64,000 bases of DNA, taken from the NCBI RefSeq assembly GCF_030503675.1, contig NZ_CP129964.1:2542001-2606000 (forward strand). Reading direction: 5' to 3'. The DNA is from Lutimonas zeaxanthinifaciens (GTDB taxonomy: Bacteria; Bacteroidota; Bacteroidia; Flavobacteriales; Flavobacteriaceae). A program made the translations under genes and the position numbers. The notes beneath the pieces were generated by a model. The model was given only the letters and a program-made list of their open reading frames with translations. It searched no databases and was not told the DNA's origin. Below, piece by piece: positions 47,635 to 57,573 of the stretch. The number at the start of each line of letters is the position of its first letter. Within the stretch, counting starts at the first letter, position 1.

Positions 47635-47763
47635 TGCTCATTTAGAGGCGTTCAAACTTTCCCTAAGTGATTTTTACTCGCTTAAAGACAGTTCAAAACC
47701 TCATAACAACAGGTTTCATTTTGTAAAAAGTTTTATGTAACTTAGGTGACAGAAAACCAAACT

Positions 47764-47997
47764 ATGCCCGTCAAAAGTTACCTTGCCCGTCCTCATAATG
47801 GGCGGTTCAGTGAGCTATTACATGAACTTTCGCTGATTGAAGGCTGCGATGTAATTCCGTCCACAAATCAGGAAGTCGCCGTTTTGGTGACAGATACCCA
47901 AACTGAATTAGAAGACAATAAACTTTTATCCCAAATCAATTCCATTGGCAGCTTAAAAATGCTTTCCATGGTTTCCGGGTTTGAGGTTGATTCTTAA
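47764..47997 (+). CDS. napD: NapD chaperone
   Basis: The 77-residue protein begins at the ATG 47764 (a GTG 18 bases upstream is also open). It has the ferredoxin-like NapD fold with SYLARP, GCDVIPSTNQEVAVLVT and ends 15 bases before napA. NapD binds the twin-arginine signal of NapA and controls its export. Its place as first gene of the operon is typical. Confidence 0.8.
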   Translation: MPVKSYLARPHNGRFSELLHELSLIEGCDVIPSTNQEVAVLVTDTQTELEDNKLLSQINSIGSLKMLSMVSGFEVDS

Positions 47998-48012
47998 TAA
48001 CCAAAATCAATT

Positions 48013-50340
48013 ATGATCAAACAAGTAAAAAGCAGAAGAGAATTTTTAAAGAAAATAGCCGCTGTTTCTGCTATGACGGCAGCAGCTTCACTTTTTCCAG
48101 GAATTGTATTTGCAGAAGAACAAATTGCGAATGCAGAATCATTTGGAGACCTTAAATGGAATAAGGCCCCATGCAGGTTCTGTGGTGTAGGGTGCGGTGT
48201 CCTTATTGGAATGGAAAACAACAAAGCCGTTGCGGTCAAAGGAGACCCGAATTCTCCGGTAAACAAAGGTTTATGCTGTGTTAAAGGATACCATCAGACG
48301 ATCTGTATGTATGCAGAAGACCGACTCACCCAACCGCTGGTCAAGAAAAACGGAACCTATGTTGAGACCAGCATGGAAGAAGCTCTGGACCTGGTGGCGT
48401 CAAAAATGAAGGAAACAATTGAAAAACACGGTAAAGATTCCGTTGCCATGTATACTTCAGGCCAGTCGACAATTCCGGAGGGCTATGTAGCATCGAAATT
48501 CATGAAAGGTGCCATAGGAACCAACAACCTGGATTGTAATGCAAGACTTTGTATGGCAAGTGCCGTAACCGGATTTTTATCCTCCTTTGGAGCAGACGAA
48601 CCCATGGGTTGTTATGAGGATATAGATCAGGCGGATGTGTTTATCACCTGGGGAAATAATATGGCCGAAATGCATCCGGTTCTATTTTCAAGAATGCTCG
48701 ATCAGCAACTGAAAAGAGGCGCTGAAATTATCGACTTTGCGACCCGGACAAGCAGATCCAGCACAGCTTCAAACAGATCAATTCTATTTCACCCGCAAAC
48801 TGACCTGGCAGTTGCCAATGCCATCGCTTTTGAAATTATAAAGAACGGATGGGTCAATGAAAAATTTGTTGAAGATCACTGTAATTTCTTTAAAGGACTT
48901 ACCGAGATTGGTTATGGGACCGAGGATAAATTTAATTTTACCGATGAACCGGAAAAAATTGATTTTGAGTCGTACCGAAATTTTTTAAATGATTATACAC
49001 CGGAAAAGGTTTCCAAGATATCCGGCGTTTCTGTAAAGGATATCAAATATCTGGCTAATTTATATGGAGACCCTAACAAAAAGGTCGTTTCTTACTGGTG
49101 CATGGGAGTCAACCAGCACACAAGAGGAACCTGGATGAACAACCTGATCTATAATATTCATCTTCTTACTGGGAAAATTTCTCAGCCTGGTAACGGACCG
49201 TTCTCTTTGACAGGACAACCCAGTGCCTGCGGAACGGCTCGGGAAGTTGGAACTTTTACGCATAAGCTTCCGAAAGGGGTAGTGATGAATGAGAAAAACA
49301 GAGAATTTGCCGCCAAGATCTGGAAAGTTCCTGTAGATAGAATTCCTTCAAAACCAACCTACCATGCTACTGAAATGTTCAGGGCATTGGACAGAGGGGA
49401 TATTAAATTTATCTGGACGCAGGTAACGAATCCATTGGTATCGCTTCCTAATGTTGGGCGTTTTACTGATGGTGCGAAAAAAGAAGACCGGTTTGTTGTG
49501 GTATCTGATGTATTCCCGACGCCAACTTCAGATGTTGCTGATGTGATTCTTCCTGCAGCCTGGCATATTGAAAAAAACGGCATGTACGGAAATTCGGAAA
49601 GAAGGACACAGCACTGGTTCAAAATGGTGGATCCTCCGGGGCAGGCTATGCCAGATGCATGGCAGACGATTGAGGTGGCCCGGCGTATGGGTTATGAAGA
49701 ATTGTTCCCGTATTCCAAGGACAATCACGAAGAAGAAATTTACAATGAATACAGACAGTTTCATGAAGGAAAAAAACATGGAATGGCGCCTTTGGAGCTC
49801 TTGAAAGAAAGATCAGGAGTCATCTGGCCATTTGTGGATGGCAAGGAAACCAAATGGAGGTTCAATGCCACTTATGACCCGGCCTGTGACAATGGAAAAC
49901 AGTTTCATTTTTACGGAAAACCTGATGGAAGAGCAGTGATCTGGCAAAGGCCTTATGAACCTGCTGCAGAATCTCCCGATACGGAATATCCGTTTTGGCT
50001 GAATACCGGACGAGTCATCGAACATTGGCATACGGGTTCCATGACCCGAAGAATTCCTGTTTTACACCAGGCGGTTCCCAATGCTTATGTGGAATTACAC
50101 CCTGAAGATGCAGAAGCTTATGGAATAAGAAACGGGGAACAGGTTAAAGTGATCTCGAGAAGAGGTACCACGGTACTTCCGGCATCGATCAATGAAAGAG
50201 GATTACCGACTAAAGGCCAGGTTTTCGTACCATTCTTTGATGAGAACATGATGATCAATGATGTAACCCTTGATGCTTTCTGCCCCATTTCAAAGGAACC
50301 GGATTTTAAAAAGTGTGCGGTTAAAATAGAAAAAGCCTAG
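48013..50340 (+). CDS. napA: Periplasmic nitrate reductase catalytic subunit
   Basis: The 775-residue molybdopterin enzyme reduces nitrate to nitrite. It has a twin-arginine signal ([13 protein letters not shown]), the [4Fe-4S] ligands C54, C57, C61 and C89 (CRFCGVGC and GLCCVKGY, with 27 residues before C89), and Mo ligand Cys180 in [11 protein letters not shown]. The length lies between the 723-residue Desulfovibrio and 828-residue E. coli enzymes. It is in the middle of the operon of electron-transfer genes. This would allow nitrate respiration or redox balancing in an otherwise aerobic organism. Confidence 0.93.
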
Positions 50341-50347
50341 GTAGATT

Positions 50348-51025
50348 ATGAAAAGATTGTTTATCATATTTTTGTTCGTCATCCTTCTGGCAGCTACCAT
50401 AGGTCTCTGGAGCTACAGTTATTTTGAATCGCTTGAAGAAGCCACGGTGAAGACGACAAGTATTCAGGAATATTCAAGTATTCCGTCTGAATCAGGAGTC
50501 TTTGAGAGGTCTCAGTATGCTCTGGAATACCAGATCATGCCTTTGGACAAGGACTACCAAAGAAACCTTAACAGCTATTATAAGAACAGAGCCTTCTACG
50601 GGGGACCTCCAACAGTTCCTCATCCTATTGAAGAAGGTAGTATCGGAGGCAGTAGTTGTTTGAAATGCCATGAGAACGGTGGATTTGTGCAAAAATTTGA
50701 AGCCTACACCCCGGTCACTCCACATCCGGACAAATTAAACTGTGTACAGTGCCATGTTCGTGTGAAGACACAGTCGAATTTTGTTGCTTCTTCCTGGACG
50801 GGAAACAAAGGATCCTCGCTTGATAACCAAGCGTTACTGAATAGTCCTCCGGTGGTTCCTCATCCTTTACAACTTAGGGAAAACTGTCTTTCGTGTCATG
50901 CCGGGCCAAGTGCAGCAAAGGAAATACGGACAACCCATCCGGAACGTGTGAATTGCCGACAATGCCATGTGATCAATGATAAAAAAACCAAAAATATAGG
51001 AACGTTCAAAAGAGCGACAAAATAG
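50348..51025 (+). CDS. Tetraheme NapB-like cytochrome c (tandem-duplicated)
   Basis: The 225-residue protein has an N-terminal signal or anchor (residues 5-22) and four CxxCH motifs: C104-C107-H, C132-C135-H, C180-C183-H and C203-C206-H. NapB has two. Here two NapB-like halves follow each other, each opening with a PPTVPHPI or PPVVPHPL motif and containing PHP or THP histidines that would be distal ligands. It likely passes electrons to NapA. The duplication is visible from motif order. It follows napA by seven bases. Confidence 0.82.
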   Translation: MKRLFIIFLFVILLAATIGLWSYSYFESLEEATVKTTSIQEYSSIPSESGVFERSQYALEYQIMPLDKDYQRNLNSYYKNRAFYGGPPTVPHPIEEGSIGGSSCLKCHENGGFVQKFEAYTPVTPHPDKLNCVQCHVRVKTQSNFVASSWTGNKGSSLDNQALLNSPPVVPHPLQLRENCLSCHAGPSAAKEIRTTHPERVNCRQCHVINDKKTKNIGTFKRATK

Positions 51026-51034
51026 TTAATTCTT

Positions 51035-51658
51035 ATGCGAAGAAGTATTCCTTTTAAAATAATAGCCATCACCATTGTTCTCCTAGTTGTTTCCTGTCAG
51101 GGAAGAAAAAAAGAGTACCATAATATCATTGATAAAATAAAAGCCCATAGTGCTGAAAACAGCAGGGACAGTATCGAGGAGCAAACCCTTTACAGTATGA
51201 ATGAGCTTGTTTCAATTGATGAAAATGATATTCATTTTTATATTAAAAAGCGTAAAGGAAGCATAAAGTCCTATGCATGCAGCGAGTGCCATAATAAACC
51301 GGTGGAACAACTTCAAAAAGAAGGCCTTGGAAAAAAGGCGCACTGGGATATTGTTATCAATCATGCCGATACCAAAACCATGAAATGTGCCTCATGTCAC
51401 AACGGAGAAGACATGAACAACTTAAAAAGTATCACCGGAGATCCCATAGATTTTGATCACAGCTATAAACTTTGTGGACAGTGTCATATTAAGCAGCAAA
51501 AAGACTGGATTGGCGGGGCCCATGGTAAAAATATCAGTGGCTGGAAAAGTGCCAGAGTTTCAAAACTTTGCGTGGAATGTCACAATCCCCATCAGCCACA
51601 GATTGAAAGCAGATGGCCCTCGAGATATAACACGGTAATGGTAGAAGAGCGAAAATAA
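51035..51658 (+). CDS. Tetraheme cytochrome c lipoprotein
   Basis: The 207-residue protein has a lipobox ending VVSC (Cys21) and four CxxCH motifs at C82, C118, C147 and C179. It lacks the single N-terminal membrane helix and fold typical of NapC/NrfH. It may tether electrons at the membrane between the Fe-S protein and NapB. No close named family is certain; it resembles cytochrome c3/c7-like proteins. It follows the NapB-like gene by nine bases. Confidence 0.75.
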   Translation: MRRSIPFKIIAITIVLLVVSCQGRKKEYHNIIDKIKAHSAENSRDSIEEQTLYSMNELVSIDENDIHFYIKKRKGSIKSYACSECHNKPVEQLQKEGLGKKAHWDIVINHADTKTMKCASCHNGEDMNNLKSITGDPIDFDHSYKLCGQCHIKQQKDWIGGAHGKNISGWKSARVSKLCVECHNPHQPQIESRWPSRYNTVMVEERK

Positions 51659-51686
51659 AACTTGACCTTAAAAAAACTTGACCTTA
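51658..51686. repeat. Tandem repeat before the Fe-S protein gene
   Basis: AAACTTGACCTTA occurs at 51658-51670 and again at 51674-51686, period 16. It lies between the cytochrome stop and the ATG at 51690 and so changes the spacing of that gap; no function is known. Confidence 0.55.
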
Positions 51687-51689
51687 CAT

Positions 51690-52745
51690 ATGATAAACAA
51701 GGATATTAAAAAATGGTTTTCACTGGACCTCGGACAAAAAAAAGAAAAATCATGTGGGTGTTCCGGAGGGCCCTGCTCCGGTGGAAGCAATTCCCGGCCC
51801 AAGGATGGTATTGATCAGGTATTCGATGTCAATATGAACAGAAGACAGGCATTTAGAAAACTTACGGCCGGGCTTTTGATCGGAGCGGGAGCAGCTAATG
51901 CTTCATGCAGCGTCACGGCAAGTGACAGCAGTAAAGAGAAATCTGAAATTGAATGGGAAGAATATTTCAAAGGGAACTATAAACTCATGTCTGAGGAAGA
52001 GAAAAACAAAACGGTCAATAGATTGGTAAGGTCTTATGAACTAAGAACAGGAAAAAAAATAAATATTTCTTCAAAAGATGCTGAACCGGATGTCCTTTTT
52101 GGCTATGCATTCAACATTTCCCAATGTCAGGGATATATGGACTGTGTCAATGCCTGTGTCGAAGAAAACAACCAGGACCGTGATTCGCAGATGCAGTATA
52201 TCAGAATCCATGAAATGAAGGACGGAAAAGGTTTGGATTTTGGGGAGGCCGATGATACATATTATCACGAAGTCCCCGCACAGGGCCATTTTTATCTGGG
52301 AACGCAGTGCTATCACTGTGACAACCCTCCTTGTATTGAAGTATGCCCTGTTGAAGCCACCTGGCGGGAGGAAGACGGGCTCGTTGTTATTGATTATGAC
52401 TGGTGTATCGGATGTCGCTATTGTATGGCTGCCTGCCCTTATGACGGAAGAAGGTTTAACTGGAGCACACCCGAGGTTCCTGAGGAAGAGGTCAATAAGA
52501 ATCAGCATTACCTGGGCAACCGTTTGAGGAAAAAAGGGGTCATGGAAAAATGTACTTTCTGTATTCAACGAAGCAGAAATGGGAAGAATCCCGCATGTGT
52601 TGATGCCTGCCCTACCGGAGCAAGAATATTTGGAAACCTATTAGATCCGGATAGTGAAATAAGATGGGTTCTGGCCAATAAAAAAGTATTCAGACTAAAA
52701 GAAGACCTGGGTACAGAGCCAAAGTTCTGGTATTATATGGATTAA
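51690..52745 (+). CDS. Four-cluster ferredoxin-like Fe-S protein (NrfC/HybA type)
   Basis: The protein has about 351 residues. An N-terminal extension of some 45 residues, with a Cys/Gly-rich patch (KSCGCSGGPCSGGSN), comes before a twin-arginine signal (NRRQAFRKL) that ends in ANASC, a possible lipidation site. Then come four Cys clusters: QCQGYMDCVNAC, QCYHCDNPPCIEVC, WCIGCRYCMAAC and KCTFCIQRSRNGKNPACVDAC. In the first the expected second Cys is Tyr. The protein would accept electrons from the NrfD subunit encoded next and pass them on. An alternative start is at 51834. Confidence 0.85.
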   Translation: MINKDIKKWFSLDLGQKKEKSCGCSGGPCSGGSNSRPKDGIDQVFDVNMNRRQAFRKLTAGLLIGAGAANASCSVTASDSSKEKSEIEWEEYFKGNYKLMSEEEKNKTVNRLVRSYELRTGKKINISSKDAEPDVLFGYAFNISQCQGYMDCVNACVEENNQDRDSQMQYIRIHEMKDGKGLDFGEADDTYYHEVPAQGHFYLGTQCYHCDNPPCIEVCPVEATWREEDGLVVIDYDWCIGCRYCMAACPYDGRRFNWSTPEVPEEEVNKNQHYLGNRLRKKGVMEKCTFCIQRSRNGKNPACVDACPTGARIFGNLLDPDSEIRWVLANKKVFRLKEDLGTEPKFWYYMD

Positions 52746-52763
52746 TCTCAGTAATTAGAAAAT

Positions 52764-53984
52764 ATGAAAGTGTTAAAAAAACTAGTCAAAGACAGTATCG
52801 TATATGTAACGCATGGAGGCATATATTATCATATCTGGATGGCCGTCCTGACGGCACTGATGCTTTTAGGTATGTTCTGCTATTTTCTGCAACTTGATCA
52901 GGGACTAAGTGTAACCGGAATGAATGACAGGGTCAGCTGGGGATTATACATTTCAAATTTTACATTTTTGGTTGGGGTAGCCGCAGCTGCCGTTATGCTG
53001 GTGCTACCAACTTATGTGCTAGAAGATTTTGACTTTAAACAAGCCGTACTGATTGGAGAAGGTATGGCCGTTGCCGCTTTGATCATGTGCCTGGCTTTTG
53101 TAGTGGCTGATATGGGAGGTCCTGCCCGACTGTGGCACATTATTCCATTTATAGGTGTTTTCAACTTTCCCAATTCCATGTTAACCTGGGATGTACTTGT
53201 ACTTAACGGATACCTGTTTATCAATTTATCTATTCCTTTTTATATCCTTTACCAACGGTATCAGGGAAAAACTCCTAATCCAAAAATTTATATTCCAGGG
53301 GTGTTCATTTCTGTTTTCTGGGCTTTTGCCATTCACCTTGTAACAGCATTTCTTTACCAGGGGCTGCAGGCTCGTCCGTTTTGGAACAATGCCCTGCTTG
53401 GACCTAAATTCCTGGCTTCAGCCTTTGCTGCAGGTCCGGCATTAATTATTATCGCTCTGGCAATTATCAGAAAATACACAGCGTTTAAAATTGAAGATAA
53501 AACCATAAAGAAAATTGCCATGGTAGTTACTGTCGCGGCACAGATCAATCTGATCATGCTTATTTCAGAATTATTTAAAGAATTTTATGCGCCAACGCAT
53601 CACAGTGAAAGCGCCTATTACCTATACTTCGGACTTCATGGCAAATCCAAGCTTGTTCCCTGGATCTGGACCGCCATATCGATGAATGTGATCGCCACCA
53701 TAGTGCTGACCTTCCATAAATTGAGGAATAACCTGACTATTTTGTACATCGCTTGTGGCCTTTTATTTCTGGGCATATGGATTGAGAAAGGCTTTGGATT
53801 AATCGTTCCGGGATTTATTCCCGGTCCCTGGGGAAAGATTGCAGAGTACTTCCCTACCCTTGTAGAAATAGGTGTAACTATCGGTATTTGGGCCATGGGT
53901 GCATTTATATTTTCCATTTTGGCAAGAACAGGAATTGCAATAGAAATGGGCCAACTTACTTATAAGGACAAGAAGGATTCTTAA
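52764..53984 (+). CDS. NrfD-family quinol-oxidising membrane subunit
   Basis: The 406-residue protein has about nine to ten membrane helices and NrfD/PsrC features: GLYISNFTFLVGVAAAAVML, ADMGGPARLWHIIPFIG and NSMLTWDVLVLNGYL. It should oxidise menaquinol and hand electrons to the Fe-S protein. In this operon it would replace NapC or NapGH as the link from the quinone pool to NapA. It lies 18 bases after the Fe-S gene. Confidence 0.87.
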   Translation: MKVLKKLVKDSIVYVTHGGIYYHIWMAVLTALMLLGMFCYFLQLDQGLSVTGMNDRVSWGLYISNFTFLVGVAAAAVMLVLPTYVLEDFDFKQAVLIGEGMAVAALIMCLAFVVADMGGPARLWHIIPFIGVFNFPNSMLTWDVLVLNGYLFINLSIPFYILYQRYQGKTPNPKIYIPGVFISVFWAFAIHLVTAFLYQGLQARPFWNNALLGPKFLASAFAAGPALIIIALAIIRKYTAFKIEDKTIKKIAMVVTVAAQINLIMLISELFKEFYAPTHHSESAYYLYFGLHGKSKLVPWIWTAISMNVIATIVLTFHKLRNNLTILYIACGLLFLGIWIEKGFGLIVPGFIPGPWGKIAEYFPTLVEIGVTIGIWAMGAFIFSILARTGIAIEMGQLTYKDKKDS

Positions 53985-55464: not shown

Positions 55465-57573
55465 ATGTTAAGCTTCAGAACTGAAATTGAAAACCCTTTG
55501 GTCCAAAAAGACATCATCGAACTTGATAAAAAAATCCAGTTATATCAAAACGGGAAAATCGATGAAGATGGCTTCAGGTCATTAAGACTCGCACGTGGAA
55601 TTTACGGCCAACGACAGGAAGGTGTTCAAATGATCCGAATAAAACTGCCCTTTGGCAGGTTAAATTCAGAGCAATTACATCGCATAGCTGATGTCTCCGA
55701 TGAATATTCCAAAGGAAGGTTGCACATTACGACAAGGCAGGATATTCAAATCCATTATGTAAGCCTTGACAGAACCCCTGAACTATGGGCTGAACTGGAG
55801 AAAAGTGACATTACCCTACGAGAGGCTTGTGGAAATGCAGTAAGGAATGTAACCGCCTCGGAAATGGCAGGCATTGATCCTGAGGAGCCTTTTGATGTTA
55901 GTCCTTACGCCGATGCCGTATTTAAATTCTTCTTAAGAAATCCAATTTGTCAGGAACTTGGAAGAAAATTCAAGATTTCTTTTTCCTCCAGTGATAAAGA
56001 CTCTGCCTTAAGTTTTATACATGATCTTGGTTTTATTGCAAAAGTCAGATATGAAAATAACAAGGAGATAAGAGGATTCAAGGTGATGATAGCGGGAGGA
56101 CTTGGTGCACAGCCCCGTCAGGCCGACATACTTTATGATTTTCTTGAGACTGATAAGATTATTCCTTTTATTGAAAGTACACTTAGGGTTTTTGATCGGC
56201 ATGGTGAAAGAAACCGAAGGGCAAAAGCCCGGTTAAAACACCTGGTCCTTAAAATTGGATTGGAAAAATTCATAGGGCTTGTAGAAGAGGAAAAAGTTGC
56301 TGTTTCAAACACCTCTGTAAACATTGACACCCATGAATTTGATATTGAAAAGAAAGATGCTAAACTAACAGCTCCTGAAGTACAACTAGAAAGTGAGATT
56401 GAGTTTGAAAATTGGAAAAAAAGCAATGTCATCGCTCAAAAGCAAGAAGGATATTTTGCCATAGGAATCAAGGTAAGGCTTGGAGATTTCTATACGGACA
56501 AGGCCAGAAAACTAGCTGATCTTATCAGAGATTATGCCCAGGATGAATTGCGTTTGACCATCAGCCAGGACATACTGATTCGAGGAGTACAGGATTCTTT
56601 TCTACCCTTTTTCTATGTCAAATTAAAGGAATTAGGATTCACCGATCTTGGTTATGGCAGTATCATGGATGTAACTTCCTGCCCGGGAACTGACACATGT
56701 AATCTGGGTATTGCAAGTAGTACCGGGCTCGCTCTAGAACTTGAGAAAACCCTTTCTGAAGAGTTTCCCATGTATGTGGATCGTAAAGATATATCGATCA
56801 AGATAAGTGGCTGTATGAATGCCTGTGGTCAGCACAGTATCGCTCAGATTGGATTTTATGGCATGTCCATGAAAAAAGGAAATTTGGTTATTCCCGCTTT
56901 CCAGGTTTTGCTCGGCGGTGGAAACCAAGGTGATGGCCAGGGAAGGTTTGCGGATAAAATTATTAAAATTCCGAGTAAAAAAGCTCCCGACGCTTTGCGA
57001 CGTTTAATTTATGATTTTGAAGATCATAAATCAGAGGGGCAAAGTTTTAATGCCTATTATCTTGAACAGGGAAAAAGTTATTTCTATTCTCTTTTAAAAC
57101 CGGTCAGTGAAATCAATGAAGACGATAAAGACCTTTTTATTGATTGGGGACACGATGAGGCATACATCAAAGCCATTGGAGTTGGGGAATGTGCCGGCGT
57201 GGTCATTGATCTGGTCAGTACGCTGTTATTTGAAACAGAAGAAAAGCTGGAGAATGCTTTTTTGGGCATTGACCAGGAAAGATGGGCCGACAGTATTTAT
57301 CATTCTTACGCGGCGATAGTAAATACGGCAAAAGCTGTATTGATCGGAGAGAATATCAAAACCAATACGCAGTCAGGAATCATAAAGGATTTTGATCAGT
57401 ATTTTGTTGAAAGCGGATTAATTCAAATGGACGGAACCCTGAGTGATCTAGCTTATCAAATAAAATCCAACAAACCTGAACCTTCTTTTGCCCAATCGTA
57501 TCTAAAGGAGGCAAAAAGATTTTATGAATTGATAGACAAATTGAGAACAAATGCCTTGAACGATGAATCCTAA
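55465..57573 (+). CDS. Sulfite reductase hemoprotein with C-terminal HEPN-like domain
   Basis: The 702-residue enzyme reduces sulfite to sulfide. It shows the two ferredoxin-like sulfite/nitrite reductase halves and siroheme/[4Fe-4S] ligands C406, C412, C450 and C454 (SCPGTDTC and GCMNAC). Residues from about 550 form an all-helical extra domain (DWGHDEAYIKAIGVGECAG...) with R606-x6-H613, the Rx4-6H pattern of HEPN domains. I recall such fusions as common in flavobacterial homologues. Siroheme would come from the SUMT gene next door and the Met8-like gene at 27521. Confidence 0.85.
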   Translation: MLSFRTEIENPLVQKDIIELDKKIQLYQNGKIDEDGFRSLRLARGIYGQRQEGVQMIRIKLPFGRLNSEQLHRIADVSDEYSKGRLHITTRQDIQIHYVSLDRTPELWAELEKSDITLREACGNAVRNVTASEMAGIDPEEPFDVSPYADAVFKFFLRNPICQELGRKFKISFSSSDKDSALSFIHDLGFIAKVRYENNKEIRGFKVMIAGGLGAQPRQADILYDFLETDKIIPFIESTLRVFDRHGERNRRAKARLKHLVLKIGLEKFIGLVEEEKVAVSNTSVNIDTHEFDIEKKDAKLTAPEVQLESEIEFENWKKSNVIAQKQEGYFAIGIKVRLGDFYTDKARKLADLIRDYAQDELRLTISQDILIRGVQDSFLPFFYVKLKELGFTDLGYGSIMDVTSCPGTDTCNLGIASSTGLALELEKTLSEEFPMYVDRKDISIKISGCMNACGQHSIAQIGFYGMSMKKGNLVIPAFQVLLGGGNQGDGQGRFADKIIKIPSKKAPDALRRLIYDFEDHKSEGQSFNAYYLEQGKSYFYSLLKPVSEINEDDKDLFIDWGHDEAYIKAIGVGECAGVVIDLVSTLLFETEEKLENAFLGIDQERWADSIYHSYAAIVNTAKAVLIGENIKTNTQSGIIKDFDQYFVESGLIQMDGTLSDLAYQIKSNKPEPSFAQSYLKEAKRFYELIDKLRTNALNDES

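Follow-up and report, generated by a model that had tools for sequence, protein, structure and literature searches.

The 64,000-nucleotide stretch of a flavobacterial genome analysed here (the window) contains, at 47764–53984, six genes on one strand, separated by short gaps, that probably encode a self-contained menaquinol:nitrate oxidoreductase. In it, judging from sequence, an NrfC/NrfD-type pair replaces NapC and NapGH, the usual electron donors of the periplasmic nitrate reductase Nap. An initial annotation had proposed the order napD, napA, a NapB-like cytochrome, a tetraheme cytochrome, an iron–sulfur (Fe-S) protein and nrfD; all six open reading frames (ORFs) are present and profile matches agree with these assignments (Table 1). 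The host belongs to the Flavobacteriaceae and its genome is a single contig of 3.53 Mb. As the closest named relative is Lutimonas saemankumensis, whose NapB-like protein is 95% identical (among the best 80 of 108 loci), we regard it as a Lutimonas-like member of the family.

The initial annotation had suggested looking for the same gene order elsewhere, and the order recurs. Among 80 related loci, the best of 108 (gathered via the NapB-like protein and so biased toward the cassette), 75 had all six genes in this order on one strand, and contig ends interrupted the other five. The order was also found on a plasmid of Flammeovirga; conservation of this kind is more than chance would give. Median intergenic gaps in the relatives were, in gene order, 4, 3, −8, 18 and 27 bases, and such small gaps fit one transcript. 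For the protein comparisons below, 4 of 77 napD, 1 of 78 napA, 1 of 80 tetraheme and 1 of 80 nrfD sequences were set aside by length or an internal stop, while all 81 NapB-like and 79 Fe-S sequences were kept; alignments A3 and A4 used 75 of 79 and 60 of 68 of the listed sequences, respectively.

Because loci gathered through the NapB-like protein are biased, we took a sample of 397 genomes of the family, which is less biased but contains the window genome and its genus. NapA (E ≤ 1e-150, a limit that Escherichia coli NapA would pass, with 3.4e-244 in another program) was found in 68 of these genomes and the cassette NrfD (E ≤ 1e-60) in 70. All 68 genomes with NapA carried the cassette NrfD, counting a partial copy in G803 and one with a stop in G743, and in 67 of them NrfD lay on the same contig and strand, 2392–3011 bases downstream of NapA; in the 68th the two were on different contigs. 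Fisher's test on the 2×2 table of co-occurrence gave 5e-75, with the related genomes being nonindependent. The two genomes with NrfD only were G778, where NrfD starts from contig base 2438 and napA was possibly cut off, and G754, which has a fragment with a stop. In-frame stops were seen in NapA of G512 and G687 as well as in the NrfD of G743 and the NrfD fragment of G754, and may reflect loss of the unit or assembly errors.

In a phylum sample, the NapB-like protein was present in 4 of 395 genomes, and the same four have NapA (TIGR01706, E ≤ 1e-150). Flammeovirga kamogawensis, which belongs to another order of Bacteroidota (Cytophagales), has the same six genes on its plasmid p1, between unrelated annotated genes; the annotation shows no nap, nrf or respiratory genes next to them. 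Identity to the window proteins was 69–72% for NapA, the Fe-S protein and NrfD, 41–43% for the cytochromes and 29% for NapD. The distribution, as read from these sequences, fits a cassette inherited or transferred as a whole, and its named carriers include Lutimonas, Polaribacter, Flagellimonas and Aquimarina.

To cover the usual donors, we searched 41 genomes with the cassette (37 from the 80 loci, G134, G182, G296 and the window genome). NapH above its cut-off was found in none of the 41, and NapG in none of them even at E 1e-10; E. coli was among the controls that matched in both of these searches. A NapC-family protein at E ≤ 1e-5 occurred in 19 of 40 relatives, each time beside NrfA; the window genome has one NapC-family protein above cut-off, which by the curated cut-off is NrfH and adjoins nrfA, about 720 kb from the cassette. 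NrfA was present in the same 20 of 41 genomes as the NapC-family protein. The remaining 21 had neither at the limits used, so the cassette persists without the nitrite reductase; Polaribacter glomeratus and a Flagellimonas type strain are examples of culturable carriers that lack nrfHA. The assertion in the initial annotation that the operon has no NapC, NapG or NapH thus holds, and extends genome-wide at family cut-offs save for this one NrfH. The annotation had named a needed NapC or NapGH elsewhere, together with an NrfD deletion of no effect, as a finding that would speak against it; napGH was above cut-off in none of the 41 genomes, and the NapC family was represented only by NrfH beside NrfA.

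The catalytic subunit passed both curated NapA cut-offs (NF010055, 989.5 vs. 904; TIGR01706, 951.7 vs. 930.55), and its closest solved relatives are the NapA structures 2nya, 3ml1 and 1ogy, with E. coli NapA as the top PDB match (3.4e-244). It retains the stretch NARxCMASAV in common with E. coli NapA, the Cys of which we take to be the molybdenum ligand, and lacks about 43 residues of E. coli NapA near query residue 567–575. A strict twin-arginine translocation (Tat) pattern was found within the first 20 residues in 29 of 77 relatives, a count for which the choice of start site may matter. NapD from the window matched PF03927 weakly (E 0.0099, 16.4 bits, below the cut-off of 28), and all 60 NapD relatives scanned matched at E ≤ 1, the best at 4e-8. 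We placed the napD start at the ATG at 47764, the GTG at 47746 in the ORF list being an upstream in-frame start without support from relatives.

The sixth gene encodes an NrfD protein (PF03916, 115 bits) that exceeds the cut-off of the NCBIfam DsrP model (NF045798, 412.7 vs. 350) and has ActC as its nearest solved relative. At one threshold all 79 sequences gave ten predicted hydrophobic segments; with a looser threshold 67 of the 79 still had ten and the remaining 12 had eleven. Residues Y62, D116, S138 and D143 are invariant in the 79 sequences and resemble Tyr52, Asp106, Ser124 and Asp129 of DsrP1 by spacing only, not by alignment (table in PMC8076601). As in NrfD-like complexes, the membrane protein adjoins an Fe-S subunit with four cluster motifs, one of which has a Tyr in place of a Cys. 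This subunit comes near the DsrO model while falling below its cut-off (NF045797, 193.4 vs. 200), its solved relatives are ArrB and PsrB/NrfC, and a twin-arginine (RR) Tat motif is present in 79 of 79 sequences. The start in the ORF list, at 51678, is a TTG, and the ATG at 51690 agrees with the relatives. An N-terminal extension ahead of the RR motif (51690–51920) contains a conserved Cys, C28, in 79 of 79.

The initial annotation described the Fe-S protein as having four clusters. The four cluster motifs stand, whereas the full ligand set does not: in all 79 sequences Tyr153 (numbered from 51678) replaces the second Cys of the first motif, the other 15 of the usual 16 ligand Cys being invariant. 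One cluster thus probably lacks a Cys ligand. QrcC is listed with one [3Fe-4S] cluster (PMC8076601), and this analogy, together with the Tyr-for-Cys replacement, suggests one [3Fe-4S] among the four. In the same genome, two other Fe-S subunits keep CxGC in this motif, and that Cys is absent in a third, beside another DsrP-like protein.

The third gene encodes a cytochrome above the Pfam NapB cut-off (37.1 vs. 25.1), and PF03892 matched at E ≤ 0.001 in 81 of 81 relatives. The window protein has four CxxCH motifs, as do 80 of 81 sequences; the AlphaFold model shows an N-terminal helix at residues 2–29, and an N-terminal hydrophobic segment is found in 78 of 81. With the family profile, the top-ranked structures are the three of NapB, with E-values that are modest (1ogy, 4.8e-5; 3ml1, 5.3e-4; 1jni, 4.6e-3). 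Residues 78–142 aligned with residues 158–213 at 39% identity over 54 columns (hhalign score 85.6), whereas four comparisons of these halves with the two modules of the neighbouring tetraheme protein gave scores of at most 25.2 over at most 17 columns. Since the halves align to each other and far less to the tetraheme modules, the protein is, as its sequence indicates, a duplicated NapB module, two NapB diheme modules in tandem, anchored in the membrane; we call it double-NapB. In the same test the halves of the tetraheme protein were also alike (score 40.7 over 44 columns), and the profiles were shallow, with an effective number of sequences (Neff) of about 1.9. Compared with a standard NapB diheme cytochrome, double-NapB matches PF03892 throughout the family, yet has four predicted hemes, from the duplicated module, and a membrane anchor. 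His 92 and 126 in module 1 and His 172 and 197 in module 2 are invariant in the 81 sequences and could be the distal heme ligands.

The fourth gene product has four CxxCH motifs in 79 of 80 sequences (one very short fragment included). An invariant Ser-Cys at residues 20–21 (S20-C21, 75 sequences) fits a lipoprotein, a lipobox-like match being found in 66 of 79; comparison with the PDB gave no convincing solved relative. With four CxxCH motifs in each of the two cassette cytochromes, the tetraheme lipoprotein and double-NapB have eight c-type heme sites in total, the number expected by the initial annotation.

In the route that we propose, NrfD would oxidize menaquinol in the membrane and pass electrons to the periplasmic Fe-S subunit, as the NrfCD, PsrBC and ActBC pairs suggest. 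From there, electrons would move to the tetraheme lipoprotein and then to the membrane-anchored double-NapB, presumably in this order, and on to NapA, which by its family would reduce nitrate to nitrite outside the cytoplasm; NapD would mature NapA, again as expected from its family. In carriers with NrfHA this would be the reverse of the E. coli pairing, Nap receiving its electrons from an NrfCD-type module and NrfA from a NapC-type protein. The suggestion in the initial annotation that the NrfD/Fe-S module is a dedicated donor of Nap has comparative support, as NrfD occurs in 68 of 68 genomes with NapA, adjacent in 67, and NapGH in 0 of 41; direction and route are what we infer. More tentatively, NrfD, the Fe-S subunit, the tetraheme protein, double-NapB and NapA may form one membrane-bound complex, in which a proton-moving ten-helix NrfD would make menaquinol oxidation by nitrate electrogenic. 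Ion translocation has been proposed for the NrfD family (PMC8076601), and electrogenic function has been demonstrated for QrcABCD (PMC6303296). It is conceivable to a similar degree, short of probable, that the cassette, which marine Bacteroidota would carry as one unit, represents a Nap type of its own and adds a quinol:nitrate member to the NrfD superfamily.

Several observations weigh against a self-contained NrfD-fed Nap. Both cassette cytochromes have sub-threshold similarity to the NapC family, the tetraheme protein reaching 23 bits against a cut-off of 24.1 and the NapB-like protein matching in 4 of 81 sequences. In a single-sequence search of the PDB with the NapB-like protein another cytochrome came first, with NapB at E 0.39. 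AlphaFold models of the two cytochromes, made without heme, give no heme order or contacts, and their mean predicted local distance difference test (pLDDT) values of 47 and 59 were too poor for a fold search. A NapH-like ferredoxin region was found in one or more proteins of 37 of the 41 genomes, the best at 69.8 bits against the cut-off of 213. Two such proteins that we scanned were about 530 amino acids long and had no better name; at E ≤ 1e-5 the region was found neither in the window genome nor in G395, G396 or G296. A PF03892 profile search of the window genome missed the NapB-like protein, though hmmscan matches it, so weak family members can escape such searches, and a completeness figure is given for 4 of the 41 genomes only. 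Finally, the window genome contains a cluster resembling alternative complex III (ACIII), as judged by the sizes and arrangement of its genes and by a single NrfD-family member, that could feed the cytochromes.

This last point bears on an alternative that we consider unlikely, namely that ACIII or another cytochrome c reductase feeds double-NapB and that NrfD and the Fe-S protein are accessory, for example in NapA maturation. A precedent exists in Campylobacter jejuni, where electrons reach Nap via QcrABC, although NapH is essential (PMC6195509). On the other hand, the NrfD/Fe-S pair is accompanied by two tetraheme cytochromes and kept in 68 of 68 NapA genomes of the family sample, no ACIII genes are annotated beside the Flammeovirga cassette, and the local pair is already sufficient by analogy with NrfCD. 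The near neighbourhood of NrfH and NrfA in 14 loci, and the feeding of NrfA by NrfCD in E. coli (PMC8076601), would agree with NrfD, Fe-S and tetraheme genes that serve the nitrite reductase while Nap borrows electrons from NrfH. This reading is strongly disfavoured and very improbable, with 21 of 41 cassette genomes lacking NrfH and NrfA at the limits used and nrfHA lying about 720 kb away in the window genome. That the NapA homologue reduces a substrate other than nitrate in vivo is about as improbable. The Flammeovirga copy is annotated only as "molybdopterin-dependent oxidoreductase" and the window protein misses the roughly 43 residues noted above, but it passes two curated NapA cut-offs, keeps NARxCMASAV and has NapD and NapB-type partners, with nrfHA near in 14 loci.

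Two further alternatives are also very improbable. With one membrane helix and four hemes, double-NapB has the topology and heme number of NapC, and 4 of 81 relatives match the NapC family at E ≤ 0.001, so it might be a NapC-like menaquinol dehydrogenase that leaves NrfD to do something else; however, all 81 match NapB, both halves are NapB modules and NrfD is kept in all 68 NapA genomes. The last genes could also be part of a sulfur (DsrMKJOP) system placed beside nap by accident, given that NrfD is above the DsrP cut-off, the Fe-S protein comes close to that of DsrO and the plasmid record calls the Flammeovirga copy DsrP; against this, no dsrM, dsrK or dsrJ was found in the six-gene unit, the annotated Flammeovirga neighbours or the 22 commonest neighbour clusters (they were not searched genome-wide), the cassette cytochrome has four hemes vs. 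three in DsrJ (PMC8076601), and NapA occurs in 68 of 70 genomes with the cassette NrfD.

The Flammeovirga NrfD copy (L138:13992–15209) is annotated as "sulfate reduction electron transfer complex DsrMKJOP subunit DsrP." For this copy and for the window protein, DsrP is likely a misnaming of a nitrate-linked NrfD. Other NrfD-type systems were also seen. At 1428417–1434309 of the window genome, a second DsrO/DsrP-like pair, both members below cut-off, lies near a protein with six CxxCH motifs; as this stretch has no ORF longer than 438 amino acids, it holds no molybdoenzyme of the usual size, and the pair is predicted to be another NrfD complex. At 2299636–2305433, a Phs/Psr-like molybdoenzyme with Fe-S and NrfD genes is divergent from a protein with 12 CxxCH motifs. 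In another locus (L126:4004–8566) a molybdoenzyme adjoins a single-chain protein combining Fe-S and NrfD parts.

Table 1. Features of the nitrate reductase cassette, in window coordinates
Feature	Position	Strand	Evidence
napD, NapA maturation chaperone	47764..47997	+	PF03927 matched by 60/60 relatives
napA, periplasmic nitrate reductase catalytic subunit	48013..50340	+	NF010055 and TIGR01706; N-terminal Tat-like SRREFLKK
double-NapB, membrane-anchored tetraheme cytochrome with two NapB-type diheme modules	50348..51025	+	PF03892, CxxCH, N-terminal helix, module alignment
NapB module 1, residues 78–142	50579..50773	+	Family profile vs. 1ogy, 3ml1, 1jni
NapB module 2, residues 158–213	50819..50986	+	hhalign to module 1
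Tetraheme c-type lipoprotein, likely relay between Fe-S protein and double-NapB	51035..51658	+	Four CxxCH, lipobox-like match
DsrO/NrfC-type Fe-S electron-transfer subunit with N-terminal extension, RR (Tat) motif and lipobox-like Cys	51690..52745	+	NF045797, motifs
DsrP-type NrfD, integral membrane, predicted menaquinol-oxidizing, ten predicted helices	52764..53984	+	PF03916, NF045798
Possible operator, imperfect palindrome GTAAC-N4-GTGAC	47737..47750	.	27 bases before napD

Recurrent neighbours of the cassette (counts drawn from the 80 loci, the number entering being unstated, with one representative per cluster scanned) were a ModE-like protein in 28 loci, MoeA in 24, an alginate-export family porin in 23, a MobA-like protein in 18, NrfH and NrfA in 14 each, cbb3 oxidase in 10 and a Crp/Fnr regulator in 9. 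These neighbours fit a molybdoenzyme of anaerobic nitrate respiration, which in some species would end in ammonium. The Aquimarina longa strain whose genome has been described carries the cassette (locus L075); the published account of its napA, nirK, norB and nosZ, there called denitrification, leaves the donor undiscussed (PMC4603819). In the window, the sulfite/nitrite reductase gene downstream of the cassette (55465–57573) has a weak C-terminal HEPN match (E 0.0005, 20.6 bits vs. a cut-off of 22).

Upstream of napD, GTAAC-N4-GTTAC with at most one mismatch occurred in 10 of 75 regions, compared with 0.4 expected from shuffles, and spacings of 2, 3, 5 and 6 gave 0 of 75; the motif is confined to the closest relatives of the window and some metagenome-assembled genomes. 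The region separating nrfH from the divergent porin lacks it, so the data do not support a regulon common to nap and nrf. The classic FNR box TTGA-N6-TCAA showed no clear enrichment upstream of napD (exact, 2 of 76 vs. 0.7 expected; one mismatch, 15 of 76 vs. 19.6).

Classic Nap operons of E. coli and other proteobacteria have the orders napFDAGHBC and napEDABC. The cassette shares with them NapD, NapA, a NapB-type cytochrome and predicted periplasmic nitrate reduction. It differs, as the initial annotation had proposed, in its NrfD/Fe-S input, with NapC, NapG and NapH not found above cut-off (bar NrfH), in the added tetraheme gene, and in the duplication and membrane anchor of its NapB. The Nap systems of Wolinella and Campylobacter, which depend on NapGH and Qcr and are independent of NapC, likewise have no NapC, but the cassette has the NrfD module and NapGH were not found in its carriers above cut-off (PMC6195509). 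The napMADGH systems of Thermosulfurimonas and Dissulfuribacter and the Caldithrix Nap with Rieske/cytochrome b resemble the cassette in having an unusual input and a tetraheme donor to NapA, and Thermosulfurimonas and Dissulfuribacter also have a locus for NrfD, Fe-S and cytochrome proteins close to nap; however, these systems keep NapGH and have NapM instead of NapB, and the four genes of the NrfD locus form a unit apart, linked by the authors with nitrite or sulfur (PMC5276818, PMC4911364, PMC5317091). Other Nap variants also retain NapGH (PMC5276818, PMC11896075, PMC5516251, PMC12780646).

Among NrfD systems, E. coli NrfABCD has the order of carriers proposed here, from quinol via NrfD and NrfC to a multiheme cytochrome and the terminal reductase, whereas the terminal enzyme of the cassette is a molybdenum nitrate reductase and its NrfD belongs to the DsrP type with ten helices, not to the NrfD type with eight (PMC8076601). 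The NrfD and Fe-S module is common to Psr, ACIII, Qrc, Dsr, Arr, Mcc and other NrfD-like complexes, and a review of them names no nitrate reductase in its abstract, Figure 1 legend or Table 1 (PMC8076601). Molybdenum enzymes of Acididesulfobacillus combine an NrfD-like subunit with a molybdopterin enzyme and are about 13-fold up with nitrate, but they are not Nap, with no NapA match there (PMC10949509). Our search of the open-access literature found no description of the six-gene cassette; subscription Nap reviews were outside its coverage, so an earlier mention is possible. By its predicted gene products, the cassette is a new variant of Nap and gives the NrfD family a new partner.

In place of its usual donors, Nap thus apparently draws on the kind of membrane module that normally supplies enzymes acting on nitrite, sulfur or arsenic. 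As the NCBI DsrP model gives this nitrate-linked NrfD a sulfate-reduction name, flavobacterial surveys that count DsrP may overcount it. The electron path to Nap and energy conservation by Nap respiration are still debated in Campylobacter (PMC6195509). The cassette places Nap in genomes without NapC or NapGH above cut-off (bar NrfH) and with an input of a kind proposed to translocate ions, and energy conservation by Nap thereby becomes testable in culturable marine bacteria. If true, an electrogenic NrfD-fed Nap would contrast with the nonconserving NapC and NapGH routes.

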